Program-made: the position numbers and the translations under genes
From: Owenia fusiformis
Lineage: Eukaryota; Annelida; Polychaeta; Sabellida; Oweniidae
Length of the DNA: 64,000 nt
Reading direction: 5' to 3'
NCBI GenBank assembly: GCA_903813345.2
Contig: CAIIXF020000008.1
Span: forward strand, 36,418,867 to 36,482,866
The notes under the pieces: generated by a model
What the model was told of the DNA's origin: nothing
Database searches by the model: none
The model's input: only the letters and a program-made list of their open reading frames with translations
Shown: positions 4,840 through 55,110 of the stretch, one piece after another
How positions within the stretch are numbered: position 1 is the first letter of the stretch
Layout of the letters: every line of letters begins with the position of its first letter

Positions 4840-7348
4840 TTCTTATCAACCCACAAGGACCTTGCTGTAACTGGTTCATGGGATCGACTCCTTATAATGT
4901 GGGATATCAGTAAAGGCGTACTAGTCTGCACTCTGTCAGGGCACACAGAAGGTACGACTCCAATTTTATCTATTTAACCCAATTAGATATTTTCAATATT
5001 ATTTTGGTGTTATTCATATGTTTCAGTTCGTCAATTCCTACATGATTCATGTTTCACTGGCATATGTTGTACATGTCTTGGTTGTAACATGCTTCATGGG
5101 TAACATATGCTTAATGTTAACATTTGTGGTAACATGCTTTTGTGGTCATTGATTGTGTTACATGCCTTTTGTGACAATAAACAAAAAATGTCAGTGGCAA
5201 CCTTTACATACACTAGTACTGTGTTTGAATGTAACAATATTATAATAATAATTCTTCAATGATTATGTTCTTCAGTTGTTTCATACTTTTGTAGTTAAGG
5301 TAGTTAGATATTTGATTTGAGTAGATTCTGGCATCTATGACATGCTTGAATGGTAACATGCCTCAATGATGACGTGTCTCAACATTTACATGTTTCAGTG
5401 GTAACATGCCTCAGGAATGACATGTCTCAACATTTACATGTTTCAGTGGTAACATGCCTCAGGAATGACATGTCTCAACATTTACATGTTTCAGTGGTAA
5501 CATGCCTCAGGAATGACATGTGTCAACATTTACATGTTTCAGTGGTAACATGCCTTAGGAATGACATGTCTCAACATTTACATGTTTCAGTGGTAACATG
5601 GCTCGGGAATGACATGTCTCAACATTTACATGTTTCAGTGGTAACATGCCTCAATGATGACATGCCTCAACATTTACATGTTTCAGTGGTGACCTGTTGC
5701 CAGTTTGACAACTACCAGCTTGTCAGTGGGAGTGCAGATGGCACAGTTAGAATCTGGAGTACAAATAGTGGAAAATGCAAGCGCACATTGACTGGTCATC
5801 TGGGGGAAGTGGTAAGTTAGTCGTTCATGTACAAATGTTCTTAAAATGTATAGCAAACCTTCCTAGTGTACCAACATTGAGATTTGAGATGGCTCTGAGT
5901 ATGATTTGAATTGTATTATATATGTATATTGTATGTCTACTTATTGGTCTCTAATTTCAATGATTTTCAGTATTGTGTGGTGTACAATGAAAGTGTTATA
6001 GCATCTGGCTCCTCAGACAGTACTGTCAAAATATGGGACTTCTCAGGTATGGATTAACCTTACCCTTTATCTGTTATATTTATTTGGATTAACCTTACCC
6101 TTTATCTGTTATATTTATAAGTACTAAATACAAGTATAGAATATAATTTTCTTAATCAATTTGATTAAAAAACATAAATTATTAGCACTTATTAAACCAC
6201 ATGTTCACTGCTACAGAGTAAGATTAAAATACTTGTGTGAGTATAATAATAAAATATTTATTGTATTACCCTAGATTTAGCTTCATGTAAATACCTGAAT
6301 CCAAAGTCCTGGTACATCAATGGGTATGAGCTGATAATTGTCATCGATTTCTTTTTTAGGCAAATGTATTCACACCCTGGGTGAACATCTGGGGGTCGTC
6401 CGCTGTCTTTATATAGATGACTATAAGCTAATCAGTGGAGGGGATGCAAAGAAACTAATGGTCTGGAATTATAAGGTATTATACGTAATTCTTGAACGAA
6501 ATGAATAATATATAAGGGTTATGTACTGGGAGGTTTTTGATACAGGGTTTAACCCTGCGGTCCCTCGGGAGATACACATATTTCCTGCGGGATAAACCCT
6601 GTTTCCAAAACCGAAAAAAATATGAAAAAAATTTTTGACAAAAAATTGTTAAAAAAATTTTAAAAAAATTAAAAAAAAATATTTTTGAAAAAAAAATTAG
6701 CGTGTATCCATCCCGGTCACGGGCCGGGTGATAGCTCCCTAGATTCACAATATATTCCCGCTCGTTATGTACCTAGAACCTCAGTAGAATTATTTTGTGT
6801 TATGTTTTGTGACCTTGATTTGGCGTCTTATTTGAATTGAAGACAATATTTGGAAATTCTTTTCTAAGAATGTTCTAATATATTAAGCCTCTAAAAGTTC
6901 CACCAAACCATCAACCCATATGGTACAGAAATACACTTATGGACTATGGAAAGACAAATGGACAGATTGGTGGCTTCTTTTTATCTCTACCCAAACTTTT
7001 TTGAAATAAACATTTGCTAATTTGAATCTACAACTGAGCATCTTTCTTTCTTTTTCTTTTTTGTTTCACCACCAGCATTCATAGTCTCTGACTTTTTGTA
7101 TTCAGCGTTTGATGGCCAGCATTTGGTGATCAGCTTTCAGTGTTTGGCGGTCAGAGTCTGTAACAAATGGCAGGTGGTTATTACATTTTGTTAATGATTT
7201 CCTTGTTCTCTTTCAGACTGGAGAACTTTTCAACATAATACATAGACAACCTACACTGCTCCATCTAATGTTGGTAACAGATACTAAACTTGTGACGGCA
7301 TCTCCAGAAAGACCAGGGACAATCACCATGCTTTCGTATTGGAAGTAG
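4840..7348 (+). CDS. WD40-repeat protein, C-terminal exons
   Basis: Five exons join with consistent phase: 4840-4951, 5687-5811, 5971-6046, 6360-6475 and 7217-7348, ending in TAG. They make 186 residues covering roughly four WD40 blades. Each blade ends in the typical SGS..D.TV..W pattern (GSWDRLLIMWD; SGSADGTVRIWS; SGSSDSTVKIWD; SGGDAKKLMVWNY), and GH dipeptides start the repeats (SGHTEV, TGHLGEV). The arrangement recalls F-box/WD proteins such as the FBXW7-like group, but no F-box is visible because the 5' exons were not found upstream to 2 kb. Such proteins usually act as substrate-binding scaffolds. The last blade is degenerate and ends in SYWK. The acceptor of the second exon is the last of seven tandem copies. 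Confidence 0.85.
5351..5686 (+). repeat. 48-bp minisatellite of repeated 3' splice sites
   Basis: About seven copies of a 48-bp unit end exactly at the acceptor of the WD40 exon starting at 5687. Each unit contains ACATGTTTCAG followed by TGGTAACATG, which copies the true acceptor ACATGTTTCAG|TGGTGACCTG. CAG acceptors fall after 5398, 5446, 5494, 5542, 5590, 5638 and 5686. The frame of the exon is open through the whole array, giving a repeated 16-residue unit (VVTCLRNDMSQHLHVS). Confidence 0.93.
6528..6770. repeat. Foldback repeat in a WD40 intron, second fragment at 56.75 kb
   Basis: It starts GGAGGTTTTTGATACAGGGT, and a near inverse copy (AAACCCTGTTTCCAAAA) lies about 70 bases on. An A/T homopolymer-rich stretch then a GC-rich tail follow. 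A related fragment at about 56735-56825 carries AAACCCTGTATCCAAAAACC, so this is a dispersed family. It lies about 50 bases after the donor at 6476. Confidence 0.6.
7060..7190 (-). repeat. Dispersed repeat copy (family A)
   Basis: Read on the minus strand it contains 'cctgccatttgttacaga' followed by runs of 'ccaaacactgaaagctg' type. Related copies lie at 17100-17215, 27165-27295 and 48570-48700 in the opposite orientation. No terminal repeats or coding potential were made out. Confidence 0.55.
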
Positions 7349-11850: not shown

Positions 11851-14800
11851 CTACCTCTCGTCTATGAGATCTTTCAAAGTTTGGAGTTGCCTTGGATTCA
11901 AATGTGTTGATCCCGCATCTATAAGTCCTTGGCCCATTTCCACATGTAGGGCTTTGATTAGTTTAACCATCATTGTCTTTGTATTACTCGCACCAGAAGC
12001 TATCAGCTTCCACACCAACGGGAGGACGTGCATTGCAACCTGGGCTCGCTTTCTCGTATAAATAGTTGGTATCAAATCTGGAAATAATGAATAACACAGT
12101 TGTACTATTAAAATCTGGCAAAAAAGTTTTAAGGAAATCACCTCTAGAGTAAAAATTGCCTTTGGGTTTGAAAGTGCTTAACATAAATAGTTTAGAACAA
12201 GATGAGCATATGAATTGCGGAAGTAAAACATGATATTATTAAGTTACTCTAGAAGTAATACATTGCCCAAGGTTTGACAGACATTATCCAAGGTTTGAAA
12301 GACATTGTCCATGGTTAGAAAGACACTGTCCGTGGTTAGAAAGACACTGTCTAAGGTTAGAAAGACACCGCCCATGGTTAGAAAGACACTGTCCATGGTT
12401 AGAAAGACACCAACCATGATTCGAAAGACACTGTCCATAGTTAGAAAGAAAGCTGTAGTGGATAAAAAATGATTACTTACTTGCAAGTTTCTCAATCATA
12501 TCTGGTTTGATGCGCAGATTGTCAGAGCTTGCTTGGTTGACAAATGGTTGTAAGAGTATAGCACCATCTGAAAAAAGGCATTACATTAATAAAGTCAAGA
12601 CATTATGGATAAATAGTCAAGTCATTATTGATATATAGTCAATACATTCTTGATATATAGTCAAGACATTATGGATAAATAGTCGAGACAGTATGGATAA
12701 ATAGTCAAGACATTATGGATAAATAGTCAAGACATTATTGATACAAAGTCAATACATTCTTGATATATAGTCAAGACATTATGGATAAATAGTCGAGACA
12801 GTATGGATAAATAGTTATTATTATTATTAAAATAGTTTATTATAGTGTCACTATAATATGGCAAATTATTATACTGCAGTCAACCGTTCCAGGTCAAATT
12901 GCCTTTTCATGAACATTTTGTATAACAGAGCAGCCCACTGTCTCTGAATTGATCTTGAATGCATTAGGCTTATAAATAAAAGTAACTCATTGTCAGTGTT
13001 TGTTCTTATATGTGGTGTTAAAATATCAGTTACAGATCTATAAAAATGTGTTCTCAAGTTGGAATAATGTTTACATTGGACAGCAAAATGAATTTCATCT
13101 TCAACAAAGTTACCATCACATAATTTACATGTACGATCATTTAGTGCTGTATTTGACCAACGACCTGTCTCAATGTGAAGTGGGAGGCTACCTGTTCTCA
13201 GTCTAGCAAGAATGGTTCTGTGATGCCTTGGAATGTATTCAGACACATATGGTTCATTAACTACTCCATATTTAAACAATCTGTATGTTCGAAGCTTATT
13301 GCCATTTTGTAAATTATTTGTATCATCCCAAATGTTTTTTAAGAAGGGGTCTTTTGCATTGAAACTGTCCTGTAAACGTTTTACAGTTGATTTTATATGC
13401 AAGAAAATATTATGATCAATAAAAATGCCATTCTTAGTCAGCATAGCTTTAGTGTGATAGTCCCAACTTCTTTTGTTTTTTAATGACCATCTATGTACCT
13501 TATGATTCAATCTATTATTGTCCATGTTATGTAACCTCAGGTATTGTCGAGCGCATTCCACTCTTTGTTTATCAATTAGGGGACTCCATCCAAGGTCCCC
13601 ACGGACTGCTTCATTACTGGTTTTAGGGCTAACTCCCAGGAATGTTTTACCAGCACGATTTTGGAGATTATTGAGACATCTATGCTCCCTGAGGCCAACA
13701 ATAGCACTGCCATAGTTTATCACTGGTTGGACGAGGGAATCATAAAGCTTAGAGAACACTTTAAAGTCCATTCCGCCAGTGGCCTTTGCTTTAGTTGTTA
13801 TTGCACCCAGGGCCCTTGAGGCTGATTTGGCAATTTCATGAGCAATGATTTTTGAGTCTAAATGTTCTTCTAGCCACACTCCAAGATATTTGTACTTTGA
13901 TGAATATTCAATGTTATGTTGGCCACACGTAAATGCAAAGTCTGATTGTAGTTGGGAGGGGGGCCTATAATGCACAATTTTTGTTTTACTTAGGTTCATA
14001 GACAGCCTCCATTTTCGACACCATTCATTCACCTTATTTAGCATGTGTTGTAAGTCTTGAGGGGTGGGTGCTATAAGGGCAATATCATCGGCATAGAGTA
14101 ATATTCCTACGTTAATTTCATCAATAGTAATTCCACATCTCAATTGTTTCACATCTGTTGCTAAATCATTAATGTAAATGGAGAACAGGGTCGGAGAAAG
14201 CAGACAGCCCTCCTTACATCCATTGGATACCTTGAATTTAGGGGTTAGCAAGCCATTAATCCTCACAGAGCAGGTCACATCTTGATACAGGGACTGGACA
14301 GCCTTAAAGATCCTACCCTTTACTCCGATCTTATTGAGTTTGAACCACAAGCAGTCACGATTAATACTACAGAACGCTTTCGTCATATCAATGAAACAAA
14401 CATAAGTGTCCTGTTTTGCTAGTTTTCGATTGTTTACAATTGAATACAGAGTATGAATCTGATCACGACAGCTCCTTTTTTCTCGAAACCCATTTTGTTC
14501 TTCAACTAAGAGGGAATTTATTTCCAGGAAATTTGTCAGTCTTTTATTCAGCACGTCACAATATATTTTGCTTGGAACGGATACTAAAGTGATAGCTCTA
14601 TAATGCAGAGGATTCCTTGTATCTCCTTCTTTAAATATAGGATTAATTATTCCTTCCATCCATTGATCTGGCACAATGCCAGATTCAAAGCATTCCTGTA
14701 TTATATTATGCAATAAGGTTATACAATGAGGGTTTTTAAGAGTTTCTGCCGGAATAGAATCTATCCCTACTGCTTTCCGAAGCTTTGCTCGTGAGATGGC

Positions 14801-17800
14801 TTCCGCTACTTCCTGGAGGGATATGTTACGATTGAGAGATTCATCCTCATTGTCATTTTCAAAGTTATTATTACGTGCATTATGCTCTTGAATGTTTTTT
14901 AAGTGGTTATCATCATATTTCCTGTTGTTGTCAATTTTAATAGAGTAAAGCTTTTGGAATGTATCAGCCCATTTATTTAGGACTTGTTGTTTCTCTGTGT
15001 AAATAACGCCAGCATCATCAGCAAATTCCCATGGGATATGTTGTTTTCTGTCATTTGACATGCCAAGCCTACCTATCTGACGCCAGAAGTCTCTTGAGTT
15101 CACCTCGTTATGTAAGTCTAGCAGATGTTGTTGCTCCTGTTTTTGATAAGCCCGCTTATATTTCCTGTGTAGCCTGTCAAAATGTCTCCGCTCGATACAA
15201 TATACTTTTTTGAGATTACTTTTCTGCTTTGTGTCCTTACAGTTAAGCCAATGTTTCTCAGCTTTGTCAGTTATATTACACTGTATTTGTAAGGTTTCAT
15301 TCCAGTAAGGTTTTTTAAAAGATTTTGCTCTCTTGTGATTATTTGACTTCACAGATATTTTGGCAAATACTCGATTCATTTCACTATTAATCACATTTAC
15401 AAATTCACCATAAATAGTATTGATTCGCTGTTTTTTATTTGCGATTCTCTCAAGACCATTGATAGTATCCATGACCTTGTTAAGAAGACTTTCATTCTGC
15501 ATGAAATCAACCGGGGTAGGTCCCACCTTAAAGCGAGTATTATTGACATCTTGTTCTGATATATCACATAGGGTAATTTCAGTATGGATTTCAAGTGAAC
15601 ACTTTAAGATAGAATGGTCAGGGGTACACTGGGGTGTATTCATGTTGAATTCCTGTATAATATCTGATAATCTCAGTACAATAGTCAAGATATTATGAAT
15701 AAATAGTCAAGACACTGTTACTCTAGCCAAGACAATCAAACATTTCTAACACTACACAAGTCAAATTCACTTCTCTTTTTTGAAATTCATTTTCAAATCA
15801 TCAAAAGTGTGGGTAAATTGAAAATGTTATAAATGGAGTTTTATTCTCTTCTGAACGCTATCATGTCTCAACATATCACTTAAAATTTAACAAATGCAAT
15901 ATAGCTTATATACCTAATTGTTCCACCAAAACATTTAATATGATTTTGGCTTTTTCTGAGATTTCTTTGTTGTTTGAGGCCATGTTACTGGCAACCACAC
16001 CAACAACTTGGTTGACCACTTGGCCCACTAGGACGTCACGTAGCATTGGTATTAGCTCCAGGAACGTCGTCAGGGCAGATATGTTCACCTTGCTGTTTGA
16101 GTCATTCAAGCGCGGTATAAATTTGTCAAAAATCTGGAAATAGAATACAGAGGCAGATGCAGTTTTTACTATCTGCAAATTTTGTTGAAACATTCAGTTG
16201 TATTGATAACTCAATCGATGTCGTGTAACATGCCAATTTTACAAATTATGTGAAGACAAATATTGACAAATTCAAAGGCAGTATTGAAGTATTAAAAAGT
16301 AGATATGGGTTGGGTGCTGGTTAGAACAACTTGACTGCTATATGAGGTACATGTACTTTGACTATGAGTCGGTGGTCTGATGGAAAAATGATTGGGTGAA
16401 AAAATGTTTATTTTGAGAGGAGTAAATAGTGGCCAACGTGTCAAAATTCGTTCACAACCAATGATACACTCTAAACTCAGGGATTGATTGACTGCTGGAT
16501 CAGGCTGACCACAAATAGAACCAATAATTATTCTATGGATCATTCAATCTACCCTAATATTAAACCTTATGAAATAGTACCTTGACTGAGTGAGCATTCA
16601 GGACATCAGGCTGCTCCTCAGCTAGTCTCCTGAACTCCATAATGCCATTATTCCTTTCCCTATAGTCATTATTACTGAGCATGGTACATATATCTTTCAC
16701 CATATCTTGAATGTCTTCAGAGTTGTAGTTCAAGCGACGTTTACTGGATGTTGAACTTGAAGGTGTGGCACTCGCTGTACTCTCCAACATGGAGCTGTAA
16801 AATCAGAAAATGAATTGTATGTAACCCTGTAGTTAAATTTTAAGCCATTGTTATTTTCTAAAAAAAACAGACACTTTCGGAATTTTTGAATGCTGGACAG
16901 TATATTAAAAATGATAATAACTTAATATAAATAGATATAATATTTCTAAAACTGCTTGCCTATTTGGCACATTTGTTTTACTTGCATTTAAACTTTTAAT
17001 AATATAGACAAAATACAACACACACATATGTTTGAAAAAAATACAAATTGCATGCAGGGGAGGGGTTTCATAACATCTATCATAAATAATACAAGGGATT
17101 ATCATGCAAAATGTCAACCTGCCATTAGTTACAGATGCTGAATGCCGAACACCAACCTCCGCCACAAAAAAGTTGGAGACTAAAAATATGTCTCCACTTG
17201 AAGTGATGACATCAAAATTATGTACAAATGGAATTATAAAATGGAGAATCATTTGGGAAAATTTTGCATGGATGACGGCAGTTATCCTTTTTGGATGTTA
17301 TATACCATAATGGCATATTGAATGAATGTAATCAGTTCTACGTTATAATGGTTAAAGGCAAAATCAGATCCAGCAAGTATCCATCATTTTCTTTATCATG
17401 ATCTTGACGAAAAATTGTTTCAATTTTAGAATATTTTGAGCTCATACCATTCCTTGTCATGTCTATCTTCTAAAAATGCCCAAAGTGTAAACTTCATTTG
17501 AGGAAAACTTAGATTTTTATAATAATGCATTAAACATAACTTATGATATCTGGCGTTTTCTTTTTCAAATACCACTCTTTGTGCTTTCTTGTCATCCCTA
17601 TTGTATTTCCCAATATGACAACATAACAGAGAAGGAAACTATTCATGCATCTCTAAGGGAGGACACTCATTATAAAATGCTGTTTATTTATTCTATAATG
17701 CCCTGCTCCGATTTTTAGTCCTGGCGCCAGTAGCCAATGAGTATTCTGTTCAAAAATTGCATTAAGTTTTGAACAAAGTACTCATCGCCTGGCTGTCGGC

Positions 17801-20800
17801 GTTGAAGATCAGAGCAAATGTGACCATGGCATAATACAATGTAAAATATCTAGGAAGTACACTCATTATTTACAGAATCTCAAAATCAACTTCAATGACC
17901 ACTTCCGGTTCAAGCAGGTAGAAGTTGACTGTTGGGTAGACTATACATGCTCTTCTAGGGAGAACACTCATTAATACAGTGCTGTTTATTATAAAAATGG
18001 TAAAGGAGGGGGGTGTGCAATAATCAGAACTGCATGTGTAGTAGGGGGAGGGAGGTGAATAAACAGCACTGCATGTACAGCATCAGGCAGGTATGCAGGC
18101 AGGCAGATTCTTAAAAATCTACATACTTTGGAAATTCAATAGACTTTTTACGAATTCTATACGAGCCTCTTCTGCTACAATAAATGAAAATCAAGGTTTA
18201 TGGTGAAGAGTGGTAAGAAGTTACATAGGGGTGATATCTTTGGGATCATGTCAATCATTCAATGACTGCTTTCAAGCACAAGTTCATTTAATTAAAAACA
18301 TCTTTGACAGAATAAGTGAGAGGATTTTGATATGATCCTTTAGATGGTAGTCCATGAATTGTATGATGTGGTTACAATCACTACAGTTATACGAGTCACA
18401 ATCAGTACAAGGTCACTGAAAATTACATCTTGTGATCAATAGAATGTGTTAGAGCTATTGCTAGTGTTATACAAAATAATACTTTGTGTTCAATATAGCA
18501 TCAACTGAGTTAAATTAAACAATAAGGCATTTATGAATTAGATGTCTGTTTAACAAAACAAACTAAGACATTCCCAGTCAAATCTCCAAAATTGAAGTTG
18601 GCCATTTGTCTTTAATCTGCTAAACAGACAGTTAACTTTAGAGATAATGTTACTTGACTGTTCCACAACATTTGATGACCAGAAGGAGGGAGCTTTCATT
18701 AAGTTAGTTTTGGGACTGGGAGTCAAAACTATTGATTATTTGACCCATGACAGATAATTAAAATACAATTCAATAAAGTAACCTTAAGTTTGTTGACATA
18801 AATGAAATAACTTAGCAAAGCATACCTTCCAGCAGAACTGCCACGTGACCTTGACCCTTGTCCTGACCTCCTAGGTTTAGCAGAGGGCGTGTCAGTAGGT
18901 TTGTCACCAAGTCCTTTACTCCTGATACCATCAACTACATCCTTCACAGTGCGGATATTGCTAGTCACATATTTGTTTAACATTTTATCAAAGTCTTGAT
19001 GGGACATTAGTATCTGGAATATTTTCCTGCCATACCACCTGAAATGTTCAATAGATGGCGATGATGTATATACAATATAAATGAATGACGTGTATTTACA
19101 AGTTAACTTGATGATTGCTGCAAATATTTCCTACAATTCAATTTAATATCTGAAAGTAAAGTTTCTCTATAAGTAAACTTTCCATACTGAAAGTGTTGTT
19201 TTTTATTGCAAGTATTTTTTATTCTAATAGTAATATTTTGTTTCTGAGGTATATTTTCCTTCTAAAAGTAACATGAAGCTGTTCAACACTGAAATACCAA
19301 TTAAGACTTTTGTAACATTTCAATGCTTTAGTGGACTTTCGCTCTTCCTAAAAATACATTTGCATAACAATGAAGAACAAAGAGAGAACAGTGGATGGGC
19401 CCATACTAAATATGGAACATACTTAGTATATACATACCTGGTTTCTGGAGAGTTGTCCACCACAAAGCTAGCTGCTGTCAGGAGCACTTTATCAGTGACA
19501 TCTTTTATCCCTGACATGCAACGTCCAGGTCCCATCTTCTCAATAACAACTATGAGATGCTGGGCAGCTGTTTTACGAACCACCATGTTTTTATGGCTGC
19601 AACCCCCAGCCACTAGAGCCACAAGAGCACGCTGGCTGGTGACATTTTCAACCATCTGAGTGAGGGCTTTATCTACATCCTCTCGTATAAAACTGTTGCT
19701 GTCTCCATTTTTGTTCAATAGGACTTTCACTGTATTGTCTAAGTCCTGTAAAATAATTCATAAATTCTGATAAAACATTCACAGAACTGAATTTTTTTTG
19801 GAACAGGAAAGTATTATCCATTTAATAACCAACAAAACCTATTATAGGATGGAAATCTTGGATCATATTGAGCATGATTTGGGTAGTTGTAAGGCCATAT
19901 ACATGATATCTAGGACATTCTGAACTGAACATTGGGTCATAACACTAACAACAGGACAGCATGTAATTCTAAGATTTTCAACTCTGTCAACTCTGAAGCT
20001 TGGGAGATCACTGGATAGATACATATACAAAGGGGTACTTACTGCATCCATGCATTTCTTGAGATTTGCAAAACAATCTCCAACAGCTGCAATTGCCAAT
20101 CTGGACACCTGCGACCTCAAATTACGCACCTACAACATTTACAGGGTATCAATTATTTGACAAGTCATCACCCCCAAAACAAATAAGTTTGACATACTCA
20201 AGATAAGTAACCTAAAGCTTTGAATGTTTTCGCAGTGACTGCATTTGTACAGTACAAACATGGCTAGATAATTGGTATGTCTTTTTATATAATTTCCGAA
20301 GGAAACAAATTATATTACAGAAGAAACTTCAATGATGAACACATAAGTGTCATCATAAATTTCTTTAATTACTCAATATACTGCAGATGATGTTAAAATA
20401 GGAAAACAAAGTTATGATTTAACTTGGGATTACCACTTACCTCAGCAGTAAGCTTTAGGAGAACATCATGTAATTTAGGGATAACTACATCAGGGTGGTG
20501 GAGTGCTAGCCTACGTATGTTGTTGATACTTTCACACTTAATTTCCCTGGAAAACAGTATTCAAATATTTCAACGGAAACTCACAAAATGAATTATGGCA
20601 TGCAGCGTTATTTCATCCAATTTAAAAATTTGACCCACTTTAAGGTTTCAAATAAGCATTTTTTTCTTTCTGCGGAGCTTTTGAATAAATACCATTCTTC
20701 AGTGCATAACCTTTGAACTATTTGTCGACGGCAATATGACTTTTGGAAGGTTTCTAAATTAAGAATGTGACGTCACTTCCGAATTATAGCATTCAACATA

Positions 20801-23800: not shown

Positions 23801-26800
23801 CCCAAAAACCTTTACAAAACAGTGTCTAAATCAAATCGTCTTTTTCAATTTGGTCATCAATAGAAAATGGCAAACTTACATCATCTGATTCCAGTTGGTC
23901 ATCAATGTCTTCCTGAGAATTGTTTTTCATGCGAACTCCATATATGGCTGGCGGATCATTTGCATCTCTTTGGTTGTTGCTCCTGGACTGACGGACATCT
24001 ACCTTCTCTAGTGAGGGACTGCTACTGGTTAGTAGGTCACTCCCACTAGCTGAACTATCAAACATTCCTGAAATGACGAATGAAATATGAATGTAGATTG
24101 CAAAAATATTAACTTCAAGGCAGTTCTGTGAACAGGGTAGTCCTAGGAACATGTAGATTGCACACTTATAATCTGCTGCACAATATATACTAACTTCAAG
24201 ATAGTCGTGTCTGTATGCTTATTGATATTGAAGAAAATAGGAATCTCTCACATGGGAAGTCTATACATACAGTCAAACCTGTATATCAAAACACCTTTCT
24301 TACCTAACACCCTTTCAATGTTAACACCCTTTTTGGTCCCATTTTTAAATCCTTAATATACAGATATAATACCATGTTGAAAAGTGATCATCTGAAAATC
24401 CAAATACTTTTGGCCAGGCCCAGTGGTGTTTGGATAAGCCAAGTTTTACTGTATTGTTAAGGACTATTGAACGTGAGATAATAAAACTTCAACATTTGAT
24501 AAACTAAACAAACCATAGGAGGTGTGGGACTTTTTCAGAGGTGCCAACAATGCTTTACAATATTTTGATTGCATATTTAAATGTACAGGGTGCCCTGTCT
24601 TTACACAGATTTGTATTGCAATTGTAAAGACTTAATGGGGGGCACCCTGTACTATTGGGATGAACATTAACATGTTAAGGTGCTTCCCTCTATAAATGGT
24701 TTATGTATTGTACTCACCTCTACCTACTATAGCATCAAGCATTAAATGTACAGGGTGTCCATAAAGTCTCTTTACACAGATTTGTATTGCAATTGTAAAC
24801 ACTTAGTGGGCACCCTGTACTATTTGGATGAACATTAACATGTTAAGGTGCTTCCCTCTATAAATGGTTTATGTATTGTACTCACCTCTACCTACTATAG
24901 CATCAAGCATTAAATGTACAGGGTGTCCATAAAGTCTCTTTACACAGATTTGTATTGCAATTGTAAAGACTTTATGGGCACCCTGTACTATTTGGATGAA
25001 CATTAACATGTTAAGGTGCTTCCCTCTATAAATGGTTTATGTATTGTACTCACCTCTACCTACTATAGCATCAAGCATTAAATGTACAGGGTGTCCATAA
25101 AGTCTCTTTACACAGATTTGTATTGCAATTGTAAAGACTTTATGGGCACCCTGTACTATTTGGATGAACATTAACATGTTAAGGTGCTTCCCTCTATAGA
25201 TAGTTAATGTATTGTACTCACCTCTACCTACTATAGCATCAGGTATTTTATCATCATCAATGTCAACTGAGCCATGGCTGTACATTAACATGCTAAGGTG
25301 CTTCCTTCTATAAATGGTTAATGTATTGTACTCACCTCTACCTACTATAGCATCAGGTATTTTATCATCATCAATGTCAACTGAGCCATGGCTGTACATT
25401 AACATGCTAAGGTGCTTCCTTCTATAAATGGTTAATGTATTGTACTCACCTCTACCTACTATAGCATCAGGTATTTTATCATCATCTATGTCAACTGAAC
25501 CATGGCTGTGCATGGAGGCCATGCCAAGTGGGGACAGCAGGGAACCTACAATAAAACATATAATCATGTATTACACTGAAATGCAGGCCTGTAGCCAGGG
25601 GGGGTTCCGGGGTTCAGGCGAACCCCTAGAATTTTTTGGAAAAGTGAACCCCCCCCTTGGAAAATTCTGGCTCGGGCCTGAAATGTGATGGCTTGAGAAA
25701 ATCATTTGGATTAATGTCATTGTCCACTTTTGTATCATGCTGATATGTTATTTTCATTCTGCTAGAGTATAAATACCCTCCCCATGATCTTTAAATATGG
25801 AGGATGATTTAGCACAATATATAGGATTTTGTACGTTTAGTACAACAGTGTTGGTTTTGACATTTAAAAAAAAAATACTTGAGGGCTTTGAAATTTTTGA
25901 CAATTTAAGATCATTGAAATTGTATTTGTGTTGCATTGTGTCATGAGAGGAAAAGTTGAGAAATAGTTGGTAGTGTAGTACTCCATCAGAGATTTCAATG
26001 TGGGAGAGCCTTGATAGTTATTATAACTTACTAAATGAGATGGCTGCATCACTTTATTTTACCAATCAGTGTAGAATTATAAATTCATGTAAAAGCATTA
26101 AATTTCTTCATGATTTGAATATTACACAGATGTACGTATCCCTTACCTTTGTTCATTCTACGTCTCTCCCTTGCTTTACTAGTAGGGTATGAAGGCTTGG
26201 GCTCAGCAACTATAGGGTCATCGCTATATCCACGACCAACAATCGCAACATCTGACGTGTGATTCTCCCTAAATGTGGCACCACCTAATGGATTATAATC
26301 ACCCAGTGATATTTCTGATTTCGAGTCCGATCTCATTGGGGCGTTCTCTGATTCGGGTGAATGGTTATTATTCAAGCTTGCCTTTGGTGGTTTCTTTGAG
26401 ACTAATTTAGGTTTAGATTCAAAGGGAGATTCTGGTTTGCCATTCAGCGCCCCCTTTCTGTAGCTTTTTTCTGTACCCCAGGGCAGAGGGGAGTCGTCAT
26501 CACGGGGACTGAGGGTAGAGAATGGACTATATATGCCACTTTCACCAAGATTTTCATCTCCAGGACTAGGGGACCTGGAACAAGCACAAAAAATATAAGT
26601 ACCTTACTCAACAACTCAATAATTAGTGAGACTCATGAATTAATTTTTGTAGAACTTTTGTGGCAAAGGATGAAACAAGACAAATTCATCTCCAATATTC
26701 TGGAGGCTTATGTACACTGAAATGACATTATAAGTGTAGCATGAAGAATTTAGAATTATGACTCATCCTTTATTATGCTCCCCCTATTCCAAAATGTCAA

Positions 26801-29800: not shown

Positions 29801-32800
29801 GTCAATCGAACCCCCACATGGACAGGTGCATTTTGATATATAACACTATGGGGGGTAAGCGTTTCATAGTTGGTCACGAACGCCATATGTGCAAAGTATT
29901 GTTATGAATTTTCGAATTTGGTGTTGGATTACGGTACTCATACCTTATAGCACAATATTTGATGGAAGTTGCATTTGGCTCCCTTAGTTAATGGCCACGA
30001 TTCCATCTCGCATGAGAGAGATACCAAACGCAAAGTTAACAGTGATATATTCCAAATGAGATATTTCTCCTGTGCCATGGCGTAGTAAGGGTAGAGGTCG
30101 ACGGGGGCGAAAGCATCCCCTCCCCTAATTGTATATATCGACCCATTAGATAGAACAAGAAAAGAGCTTTAAAATGTTTTTTAATTGAAGCTTGTAGTAC
30201 AATTTTGATGGAAGTTGAATCAATTTTTGTCGAAATAAATCATTACAAGTTAATGCCTTTACGATTCCATACTGCAAAAGAAGCACTATATCCCCCCTCA
30301 AAAGAAAAAAGGAGGTGCTGCCGGGATTCGAACTCGGGACCGAGTGTGTTCGAGTCGTGCTCGCTATCCACTAGACTACCAGTGATGAGGTTATTTCTAA
30401 TATTAAAAGTAGTGGATTTATTTATGAAATTGTCGGCTCTCTAGCAAAAACACGTAGCAGCCACTTGCGTACCGACAATTTATCTGACACTACTAGGTGA
30501 CGATAGAGTGCCGACAATTGTCGGTACCCCAGCAAATACCCCTGGACAGTCTCCAGTACCGACAATTGTCGGTCCTGGAGCCACTCCGTTAAAAGAAACG
30601 ACGTAAAGTTAGGAATTCGTAAAATCTATTGTTCTCTAACTGTGACGTCATTATATCCATGGTTACAATTGATTAACATTCAAACTCGAAACTTTACAAA
30701 GTTTCTGTTAATGGCCTCCAGCTCTCTAATGCCATAAAACGAACTGTTGATAGCTTTAAACATAGAGATGATACTCCTTTCAAACGGGTTACTTTGATTG
30801 TGCAATTCACATGTACTCAGAGTGTTAGAGCTCTGATGCATTCTCAATCTCTTGAAAAGGGTTCCCATATGATGGGAAAGCATTGTGATGCATATGGGAA
30901 TGAACCCATATGATCTCTTACAGATCAAAATAATTGAAAAAATCGTACAAAATGAATGAACCCGCATAGTCATTGACAGATATTGAAAAAATCATCTAAG
31001 GTCAATGTTACTCTGAGGTCAAGCCAATTTACAAGGTAAAATTAAATAATCCCAGATACATGAATTGAAAAATCTATATCATGAATCCTGCTTTAATTAA
31101 GGATTTTTACATGTGTGCATATACTTGTAGACAGATTATTACATTTTTCAATATAAATGATCAATCCATCTGCTACATGCTAATATCTCATAATTATGGT
31201 TTTAACTCTTGCTGGTCCTGAGTGGGGATTTAAGTAAATCATCAATTCTAACGTAATAACTAAGATTCTGTATGATGCCTCTACATCCTATTCTCATTTG
31301 CTTAACATTTACCTCACCTCTTTAGAGTTTACCTCACCTCTTTAGAGTTTACCTCACCTCTTTAGAGTTTGCCTCACCTCTTTAGAATTTGCCTCACCTC
31401 TTTAATTGCCTCACTTCTTTAGAGTTTGCCTCACCTCTTTAGAGTTGACCTCACCTCTTTAGAGTTTATCTCACCTGTTTAGAGTTTGCCTCACTTCTTT
31501 AGAGTTTGCCTCACCTCTTTAATTGCCTCACTTCTTTAGGGTTTGCCTCACTTCTTTAGAGTTTGCCTCACCTCTTTAGAGTTTGCCTCACCTCTTTAGA
31601 GTCTGCCTCAGCTGTTTAGAGTTTGCCTCACCTTTTTAGAGTCTGCCTCACCACTTCAAGCATTCTAACAGACTTATGGCCCTGGCCAATGATTACTTGC
31701 AGATTACTGAATTTATGTATGCAAATGATAATATTGCAAATCATGACGTTATATCTCGTAAATAATCAAAAAGGATACTTCATTAATAATTGGGTTTAAT
31801 CAAGAGAGCTCATTTTAAATGCAATTTAAAGCTGACAATATTTATGCAAATCAGAAGAATTTTCATAAACAACATTTTCACTGACGTCAAAATATTTAAT
31901 CCAACACATGATAAAAACATGTTCAAGCCAGCAGACTGGAGCTAAACGCAATCAACTATCACAATTTGCCTTGCGGAGACATTCATGTAAAAAATATGTT
32001 TCACATATAAAAGAACTTGCATCTGTTGACAACATTTTTCCTAACTTTTATCGAAATAAAACTAAAGCTAAAACACCTACCTAATTCACAGATAGATTCA
32101 ACTAATTAAAATCATATAAACCGATTATTCGTGAACTCTCGACACTTGTGCAAGAGAATTGATAAACATCATTATTAGAATAATCCAAATGCAAAAAAAA
32201 TAATTATGATTCAACAGCCCATATGTTACAAATCTATAAAATCTGCTGCACAAAGGTTATTAACAGGTCTGTTCTATAGTAACCATGGTGACCTAACATG
32301 GTACTACAATAATAAGTAAATCACCCTTCTCAAGATCTATATATAATCAACACTCTTAAGAAGATGAGATTTTTGAAGTCGCTCCTATTATTCTCTTAAC
32401 ATAAAGTTGGAAATCATGACACGATTACAATCTGTAAGTAGCTTACATATTACTTTAATAACATTCAAACTCTCATGAAGTTCCATTTGAACTTTTTAGA
32501 TCTTGTCAACATCAAAACTGTAAAATCCTCTGTCATATTAAGAGGATGGTGTACCTAAGTGATACTGAATCAGGGTACAACACCTAGGTATGATCCATGA
32601 TATCATCTGCACAAACAAACAAATGGATGGAAAAATGAACAGACAGAAAGCTTCACTATATCCCTTCTCAAACTTCACTTGGTCTCCGTTAGTAAAAGAT
32701 AATTTATTAAAATGCAGATGATAAGCTGTGTATGTATTGTGAGCGCGAGAAAAGTTTGCAAACTGATAAACTGTATGAAAGGAAACACAGATGTTACATC

Positions 32801-50800: not shown

Positions 50801-53800
50801 TATACTTGCATTAACCTTCTGCACTCTGACTTATTTCAGCAAATATATCCCACGCATCTGACTTATTTTTCAAAAATGATATGCCTGGACTAAATAATTA
50901 ATATCTCAATAACTACTGAATGAATCTGGATAAAATTTTCACAAAGGGAAGATACACTAGCGTGGCTCATGAGAAAAATGTTCTCATGAATTTTTTCGTA
51001 CATAAACACGACTGGGCATAAATATACCATGAATACTCCTCCAGAATCCGCCGTTTTGCCCCTCGGGAGATTCAACGTCTGGTCAGAATCCAAAACTGAA
51101 TGTGCAGCGATCGAATGTTCTTCTTTTCAGTTCAGAAAATATTCTAGTTTCTATTTTCGATGACCATTAGCGGCTTCCAAGAGCCTAAAGAGCTCGAAAT
51201 CGCAATCCATTTCCTCCACATTTTCGTTGTGATCGTATTTGGCCGTCATTTTGTACGATTTGTTCACTAAAAACGACTTAAACACTGTTTAAATTGTTGA
51301 ATTGAGAAATATTTTTTGAAACATCGCCATTTCTAGGTCAACAGGAAGTCACCTTCTAAGGACTGAATAAATCGGGCAATCTAATTGGATCATAAGAACG
51401 GCGGGAAAAAGTAAAGTTTTCAAAAGTTAGATTTGTGTCGTCCGGATACGCCGGTGGATTCTGGCGGTAATTTTGAATGGGCGGACGCGGTCGCCGGTGG
51501 TCTGCTAAAGGTTAATAACCTGGCATTTATTTCATGTTGTCCAAGACATCTACCTTATGAATCATTTAGATCTCAGGGCACCCAAAAGTTTTTTTTCTTT
51601 TTTAGAAGTACTGAACGTGGCATCATGACCAAATTGAGAGTGACTAACAAAGGGCTTTCCTAGAATCCAAATTAATTGCATCATAAAGGATATTATCAAA
51701 AGTAACTGAATAAACAAGAAAACAATTAGATACAATAATATCGGAAAAACAACTGTGTGGGCAGCTTTTACTGTGAATCTATTTCCAATTTTTTGCTAAT
51801 TTTGATTTACTGAATGGTATATTCCTGAAAATATTGATGCATTCATTTTCAACTTCCCAAATTTGACTTTTCTTAATGTAGCTGTCACACTTATGCTATG
51901 TGGGCTCTCACAGTTCGCCACCATGTGGATACTTTGGGGCAGATGACAGGGCATGGCACAGATACATGGTGGGCAAAACAAATAATTTTACAGCAAGAAG
52001 CAAGATCCCCATCAGACCAAATAAAAATAAATAAATTAATTAATCAAAAAATTAATATAGTGGTGAGCCCACATGGCCAATGTGACAGCTATTACCAATT
52101 CTTTAGAAATGAGTCAAAATGCAAACATTTCCTTGAAACCATTGATCAAATCATTCTATTAACAAACCAGTCATGCATTCATGCATATCATTCACTGACT
52201 TTTGTTACTGCTATTAATCATGATAATCTATAGACCAGATGATAAGCAGATGATAAGAATTGTGTTAAGGACAAATTGAGCTCATAAAATAAAATGGAAA
52301 AATCTGAAAATACAAAGGCATATTGTCATTTCTAAATAAAAATGAGATAATTTTCAACTCAAAGGACCTGAATATAGGATTTTCAGATGAGTGCTTCTGG
52401 ATGCTTGGATCAATGATAAATGTTCATATTGCTGAATCTTGAATACAGATATGAATCATGCTTTATCCCTTCACGGATCAGAATGTCAGACTGTTTTAGT
52501 AGTCCCTACCAAACCATCTGAGAAGTTTTCTCTAACTGATGAGGCAGTTTTCATTTGTCCGAAAACTGTCAAAATAGATGGACTGAGAGTCTGATATAGT
52601 ATTTGTGATTCTGAAGGCTTACACTATCACACTACTATACCTTTTTAACCCCTAGAAATGCTTAAGATACTCTCATTGTATTGTTTAGTATATTTTTGAA
52701 AGTATCTCATAACATTTAACAGTCATCCAATAAACCATTTATAAGGAACAGACAAATAAAAACGTAATCATTACTAATAAGCCAATTGGGTTGCTCATGA
52801 ACACCAAATGCAAGGTATAGTAGAGTGACTATGAGCCATTTCTGATTAACAGACAATTTGCTGAATACAGTATGTGATTAAGGTAATGCTTACCTGTTGT
52901 CCACCTACTGGTGCACTGCTAGGGTGCATACTGAATGGTAGCCTGCTCTCCTGTTCCTCTTCCCAGGGCAGCTTCCCTTTGCCTCTACCAGCACTCATGA
53001 ACCGCTTAGGGCTATCATAGGGCCCTGGGGGGACTGTGGGGGTCGACCTGGCACTGGCAGAGCTGAGGCTCTCAAGTTCTATGGTATCTGAGCGTGTAGA
53101 GCGTGCGGAGTTCCCTCCACCACCAGATGCTTGCATTATCCATTCAATGTCTGCCCCTGCAGGGAGATTACTTGAGCCTAGACGTGCAGAGGTTGGAATC
53201 GTAATCGCATATTCTACAAGACCATCTTGGGACACTTTAGGGAGTTGTCTACGCGCTAGCCGTGCCTGCACAGCTGCCATTACACCATCCCCACCATCGT
53301 TTAACTCGACATTATCTACAGCCTTTACTAAAGGTCCAAGTTTTCCTGCCCCCATAGCTTGTGCAATGAGGGAGAAACATTCCATGCAAGCTTGCCGTAC
53401 TTGTCTCTTGCTATCAACTAGCATCATAGCAATCGTTTGACATATTTCACCAAGGTCAAATTCATAACTAGGGAATTTACTGAGTGTAGCTATAACAATG
53501 TTTAAGGTTTCAGCTCTCACTCTCGAATTTCGATTATTTAAGTTCCAACATATAGTGTTCAGGATTTCATGCCGTGACAAGGTGTTTACATGCATTAAAT
53601 TCATTGCAATTTTCATAATTGATTGTCGTATCACTATTTTGTTATCTACCATTCGCTTTGCTATAGCACTGGCAAATGATTTCAAGTATGGCGCCACACC
53701 ACCTTCTAATTTCTCAACCACAACTGCAAGAATATCAAGTGCAGCGAGAGTAATTTTGAAATTGGGATCATCTAATAGATTGTTCAAAAAACTTATAAAC

Positions 53801-54783: not shown

Positions 54784-55110
54784 ATTGGTGCTATACGCAG
54801 GCTTAATGTTTATGTAGGATACATCATTTATATTTGTAAACTCATGCTGAAATTTTTTTCACAAAATTGTCTGCCATCAGTTTGAAATATCCTTATAAAA
54901 AATACGTAATTTCAACAACAATTTGGTTTGAATCCATAGTATCATACTTCCTCTGACATTAAGATTCAAATTTTATAGCACACTACTCTGTATACGTCGT
55001 AATATGAGTAAAAATCCATAAAACGTTTAAACTCTCGATACTTTTTCGAAAAATGTCATCCAAGATGGCGACTTCACCACAACAACTATGATCACGTGAT
55101 CAAGCTAAAA
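54784..55110 (-). promoter_or_regulatory. Probable TOGARAM1 promoter/5' UTR
   Basis: The 330 bases before the ATG contain CAAGATGGCG (55061-55070), matching the YY1 core often found at start sites, and the palindrome ATCACGTGAT (55091-55100), an E-box. Both are about 280-320 bases from the ATG. No TATA box is evident. A transcription start near here is an inference from the motifs and the distance only. Confidence 0.4.

Follow-up and report, generated by a model that had tools for sequence, protein, structure and literature searches.

An array of duplicated splice donors across the end of exon 11 in a TOGARAM1-like gene of the annelid Owenia fusiformis

Introduction

The term mirage denotes a minisatellite that lies across an exon-intron boundary, and such structures have been described for the Adh, TnC, and globin genes of amphioxus. 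They occur on the donor or the acceptor side of the intron, and the Adh3 data, together with RT-PCR of the globin genes, are said to suggest that splicing is regular. Among the globin mirages, BflGb6 has units of 150-160 bp and BflGb9 units of 157 bp, and an aberrantly assembled mirage has been reported for BflGb6. It has also been pointed out, in the paper on the amphioxus globin genes, that the spare splice signals of mirages could act as cryptic sites. Tandem repeats at splice sites are known from lancelet PGBD5 as well; in PMC3902484 they are called imperfect, the Adh and TnC mirages are said to yield no aberrant mRNAs, and the same is suggested for PGBD5. Intron gain via tandem genomic duplication is treated in PMC4974935 and PMC3443670. 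A literature search on mirages and on TOGARAM1 splicing returned mirage reports for lancelets only.

Here, an array of this type is described at exon 11 of a TOGARAM1-like gene, in a 64-kb stretch of contig C8 of Owenia fusiformis that is called the window below; positions given without a contig refer to it. As in the amphioxus globin mirages, the units of the array cross the boundary, many of them carry a splice signal, and several copies are nearly identical. In contrast to those mirages, the array belongs to a lophotrochozoan, has two nested unit lengths and a palindrome in one unit, and keeps the reading frame through four donors; it is known here from the sequence of one assembly. From the PGBD5 repeats it differs in gene and lineage. 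In the model of intron gain, extra splice signals are placed within a gene by tandem duplication, whereas the duplicated segment described here crosses the boundary of an intron that was already there, and no new intron is seen. Thus, the kind of structure is already known, while its host lineage, an annelid, appears to be new.

The host gene and its surroundings

The array lies in a minus-strand gene that a preliminary description had named TOGARAM1. This name fits the TOG/HEAT matches of a large open frame and is based on such domain matches rather than on a TOGARAM1-specific match; the gene is referred to here as TOGARAM1-like. A weaker CLASP_N match at 19320-19757 (5.5e-05) falls under the curated cut-off. 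The host is a probable ciliary gene. The preliminary description had also likened the array to one on the acceptor side of a WD40 gene, and that likeness is real. The true exon start of the WD40 gene is at 5687 by reading, with a WD40 match within 5587-5820.

52846-54858, minus strand: long open frame with domains of the TOG/HEAT type, on which the TOGARAM1-like name is based (Pfam TPR_DNAAF5 3.2e-11, XMAP215_CLASP_TOG 6.1e-11, CLASP_N 3.6e-07)
5340-5690, plus strand: acceptor-side array of the WD40 gene, seven ACATGTTTCAG words 48 bp apart

Other repeats are found nearby. A retroelement at 12869-15706 on the minus strand, whose open frame of 945 residues contains a reverse transcriptase domain (RVT_1, 9.9e-38), lies close to the 3' portion of the TOGARAM1-like gene. 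A 52/53-bp array occupies positions 1-639 and runs on past the start of the window; its minus-strand unit is donor-bearing and contains TTTTTG/GTGAGTAACC (a slash marks a real or potential splice junction here and below). On the plus strand, a 30-bp array at C8:36408720-36409541 holds the donor-like words AAAG/GTAAG. A 20-bp array at 31308-31656, which shares its strand with the TOGARAM1-like gene and bears GTGAGG, has no adjoining exon in sight and was not counted as a mirage. The GC content of the window is 34%, as it is in 200 kb elsewhere in the genome, and the window has no Rfam match at gathering scores.

Structure of the array

Exon 11 is followed by six GTGAGT donors on the minus strand, which start at 25449, 25335, 25221, 25053, 24885, and 24717 and are numbered 1 to 6 in this order. 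The native donor and five copies, spaced at 114, 114, 168, 168, and 168 bp, had been proposed before, and both the coordinates and the spacings were reproduced, each spacing being divisible by three. The 24-base context is identical around all six donors, with AG/GTGAGT kept in every one, and a 34-base donor word has six mismatch-free matches in the 498-Mb genome, all of them inside this array. Tandem Repeats Finder reports a period of 168 at 24598-25241 and a period of 114 at 25161-25513. The elements of the locus are as follows.

25450-25545, minus strand: exon 11 as spliced at the native donor, 96 nt, both ends in phase 1 (acceptor and donor read directly)
25444-25449, minus strand: native donor GTGAGT, read from the sequence
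25398-25511, minus strand: 114-bp unit, copy 1, with 62 nt exonic and 52 nt intronic
25284-25397, minus strand: 114-bp unit, copy 2, donor 25335; three differences from copy 1, in the exon-like part only
25170-25283, minus strand: 114-bp unit, copy 3, donor 25221; four differences from copy 2, in the intron-like part only
25073-25240, minus strand: 168-bp unit, copy 1, donor 25221, overlapping copy 3 of the 114-bp unit
24905-25072, minus strand: 168-bp unit, copy 2, donor 25053
24737-24904, minus strand: 168-bp unit, copy 3, donor 24885
24577-24736, minus strand: 168-bp unit, copy 4, donor 24717; the last copy, with a diverging end
25037-25039, minus strand: stop codon closing the extended frame of exon 11, just past donor 25053
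23880-24067, minus strand: exon 12, the presumed acceptor partner of all array donors (direct reading; the phase fits)
25075-25152, minus strand: palindrome in copy 1 of the 168-bp unit (self blastn, also found on the opposite strand)
24907-24984, 24739-24816, and 24577-24648, minus strand: further copies of the palindrome in the array (self blastn)

The 168-bp unit consists of 19 nt of exon and 149 nt of intron, and its roughly four copies interlock with the three copies of the 114-bp unit. Between copies 1 and 2 of the latter, changes are found at -61 (H/Y, at the unit edge), -50, and -38, the last two being silent by reading. Copies 2 and 3 differ in their intron-like part by two silent and two replacement changes, also by reading. 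Tandem duplication over the donor of exon 11 is certain. The units hold the end of an exon plus the start of an intron, which is what defines a mirage structurally, and as judged from its sequence the array is one.

Behind the donor of the 168-bp unit lies a nearly palindromic stretch of 78 bp, which matches its own complement at 76% (blastn). Similar sequences occur at at least 39 other sites of the genome, on 11 contigs, a count in which 61 of 67 matches lay outside the array, were merged within 1 kb, and came from scoring the best 40 of 223 candidates. Because of these further copies, the palindrome is classed from its sequence as a small dispersed repeat, and probably as a MITE with TA on either side. 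Compared with 20 shuffled versions of itself, the region folds better (z -6.4), which is explicable by the repeated palindromes, and no conclusion on splicing is drawn from it.

What the extra donors would add

The preliminary description had stated that the frame of exon 11 stays open past the donors at 25335, 25221, and 25053, so that their use would add 38, 76, or 132 residues. This was confirmed, the open frame closing at 25037. Each of donors 1 to 4 is in phase with exon 12 and meets no stop before the splice, whereas donors 5 and 6 meet one and three stops, respectively. From the native donor, the junction of exons 11 and 12 reads GSLLSPLGMASMHSHGSVDIDDDKIPDAIVGR/GMFDSS (...DAIVGR/GMFDSS). 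It had also been claimed that the extension brings extra copies of a segment of the protein. This holds for two copies of DDDKIPDAIVGRG, which arrive with donors 2 and 3; donor 4, in contrast, contributes only DAIVGRG, behind a stretch of intron and palindrome sequence, and of the 56 codons that separate donors 3 and 4 about half are supplied by the transposon-like palindrome.

The motif AIVGRG is present in exon 10 (VAIVGRGYSDD; 26085-26603) and again at the junction of exons 11 and 12 (DAIVGRGMFDSS), as a repeated linear motif in what is presumed to be the TOG linker. The extended frame as a whole matches FG-GAP (7.5e-07), but no stretch passes alone, and the match is read as the sum of tandem DIDDDKIPDAIVG copies and not as a domain.

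How often such a frame would stay open by chance was estimated with stretches of equal length drawn from the window, allowing one third for each period. A single frame was open in 0.35 of the draws for the 52-base piece and in 0.07 for the 149-base piece. For this array alone, the naive chance of keeping the frame is then about 0.12 over donors 2-3 and falls to about 0.003 over donors 2-4, both before allowing for the other donor arrays of the genome and for the selection of this array by its frame. The naive probability mildly favours a functional use of the extra donors; nevertheless, chance together with ascertainment is the best reading of the open frame.

A natural control in the TAF5 gene

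A second array of donors was found among 150 WD40 matches in the genome, some of which form a series on C7 with a spacing of 94 or 188 bp. At C7:38703567-38704037, six GTAAGT donors follow each other at 94-bp steps in near-identical tandem units beside a coding exon. This exon, with SEDGT at its end, matches residues 329-374 of TFIID subunit 5 (6f3t_A), and the next exon matches the adjoining residues, 375-438, of the same chain. For either exon the highest-ranking chain is 2ymu_A, a WD-40 repeat protein, with a score summed over many repeats of which no stretch passes alone. Of the six matches to the exon in the genome, one is whole and five are copies; every one lies in the C7 array and none elsewhere.

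Both arrays consist of six donors, of one word within each array, in near-identical tandem units at a coding exon. In contrast to the TOGARAM1-like array, the TAF5 unit is almost wholly exon and, at 94 bp, not a multiple of three, and use of its downstream donors would disrupt the protein. When the next exon is joined on, donor 1 gives SEDGTIRLWSLK, with no stops and the junction SEDGT-I-RLWSLK, while donors 2-6 give 7, 5, 2, 9, and 7 stops. Since only donor 1 leaves an open frame, the coding capacity of the two exons suggests that TAF5 must be made from the first donor despite the five copies downstream.

Donor arrays in the rest of the genome

In the whole genome, three AGGTRAGT words at a spacing of 90-120 bp gave 1153 matches, against 421 for the reversed word, and at 150-180 bp 861 against 406. 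These matches are not independent, as a single array yields many of them; there was one control word, and arrays were counted irrespective of exons. Among the matches listed, taking places more than 5 kb apart, 11 donor arrays lie on the first 23.2 Mb of C1, and 11 control-word arrays lie on C1 together with the initial 29.6 Mb of C2, a four-fold higher density of donor arrays (two-sided p 0.0017). Outside arrays, in 235 kb of DNA, it is the donor word that is the rarer of the two (11 against 19), and adjusting for word frequency raises the excess to about seven-fold, a figure that rests on these small counts. In a separate survey of 264 kb with 111 arrays, GGTRAGK was found 8 times in array units against 1.7 expected, and the reversed word 3 times against 3.2. 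Several of these eight occurrences lie in or next to the window, and the whole-genome counts are therefore relied on instead.

The leading periods of 15 donor arrays are 54, 52, 25, 114, 33, 91, 38, 91, 29, 44, 100, 41, 41, 167, and 58, where 114 and the second 91 each come from a single match with equal gaps assumed, and a few arrays are irregular. Only three of the 15 are divisible by three, and frame-keeping is thus not general among donor arrays. It may be that splice donors enter tandem arrays more than the control word does, that exon-intron boundaries are hot spots of duplication or places where arrays are retained, and that mirages are general in some animal genomes outside the cephalochordates, with the TOGARAM1-like array as one in-frame case; this broader proposal is tentative, and we would sooner doubt it than adopt it.

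Two other features of the genome were observed. At C9:37986009-37994334, on the minus strand, a tandem series of 12 separate places of exon size, each 0.3-1.9 kb from the next, matches positions ~18-84 of Myosin_head. The series has the appearance of a large set of alternative exons belonging to a gene for a muscle myosin heavy chain. A myosin fragment of the genome is nearest to chains that we take to be those of scallop myosin. At C10:25644691-25647724, a degenerate-looking 18S rRNA fragment, presumably lophotrochozoan by its look, lies in a GC-rich, repeat-containing stretch. A search for mitochondrial COX1 gave no match.

Origin of the array and choice of donor

The array is best explained as a mirage made of the tandem-duplicated end of exon 11 and start of intron 11, in which the first donor most likely gives the main mRNA and the rest is intronic (probability about 0.8). 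A segment with these two parts would have been duplicated in tandem to give a minisatellite. The 168-bp unit starts at GATGCT in the exon and takes in the donor and the palindromic transposon-like element, which probably sat in intron 11 before this duplication, and the 114-bp unit extends from approximately the exonic ACAGCC to the intronic TTAAT. Afterwards, slippage or unequal exchange may have multiplied the copies and partly homogenised them. Donor 1 is the most likely source of the main mRNA because it alone ends a normal exon, and its preference is also suggested by the TAF5 control and by the published mirages. The spliceosome would mostly take this donor and leave the downstream copies as intronic ballast. 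Low-level in-frame isoforms from donors 2-4 may occur, and their occasional use would be tolerated because the frame is kept, while donors 5-6 would bring a stop codon.

Some observations speak against the array being a mirage and nothing more. Each of the two unit lengths is divisible by three, no stop interrupts the frame as far as donor 4, at the low naive chance given above, and the WD40 array of the same window likewise has a period divisible by three; there is also the remark in the globin paper on cryptic sites. One explanation that would accommodate such facts is a regulated set of alternative donors yielding TOGARAM1 with 0, 38, 76, or 132 extra linker residues. All six donors are identical, and the extra copies would repeat an existing motif, IVGRG, which is found once in exon 10 and again at the junction of exons 11 and 12. 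Nevertheless, mirages elsewhere are reported as regularly spliced, the TAF5 array of the same genome is out of frame, in-frame periods are not in excess among the 15 arrays, and a transposon-like repeat accounts for about half of what is gained between donors 3 and 4. In addition, the two silent and two replacement changes between the intron-like parts of copies 2 and 3 give no sign of constraint. Regulated use of the donors is thus held to be improbable. The in-frame extension of exon 11 in the preliminary description accordingly stands as to the array, the donors, the open frame, and the phase to exon 12, but the same comparisons argue against a functional extension.

The frame could also be kept without any function if splice-site duplications arose everywhere and the in-frame ones lasted longer, as mis-splicing from them would cost less, with leaky isoforms being neutral. 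Both boundary arrays of the window have in-frame periods (114/168 and 48), as this would predict; by contrast, the only TAF5 copy found has out-of-frame donors and just three of the 15 donor arrays have in-frame periods, so that such survivorship, too, is considered unlikely, if less so than regulated splicing. As for the assembly, the copy number of a repeat is hard to establish, and the BflGb6 mirage provides a precedent for a repeat that has been collapsed or expanded into an unreal number of copies. Here, however, the copies have their own substitutions and the two unit types interlock, which argues against a simple copying error, and an artefact is given very little credence.

Significance

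A curiosity of lancelet genes is extended here to an annelid. The genome of O. fusiformis offers a natural experiment in which six competing donors of the same sequence are out of frame in TAF5, a gene of core transcription, and in frame in TOGARAM1, probably a ciliary gene. If a full survey based on gene models bears out the enrichment of donors in tandem arrays, the way new introns originate and the redundancy of splice sites would become directly testable. And if exon-intron boundaries are hot spots of such duplication, mirages would keep supplying spare splice sites, new introns, and exons of variable length.
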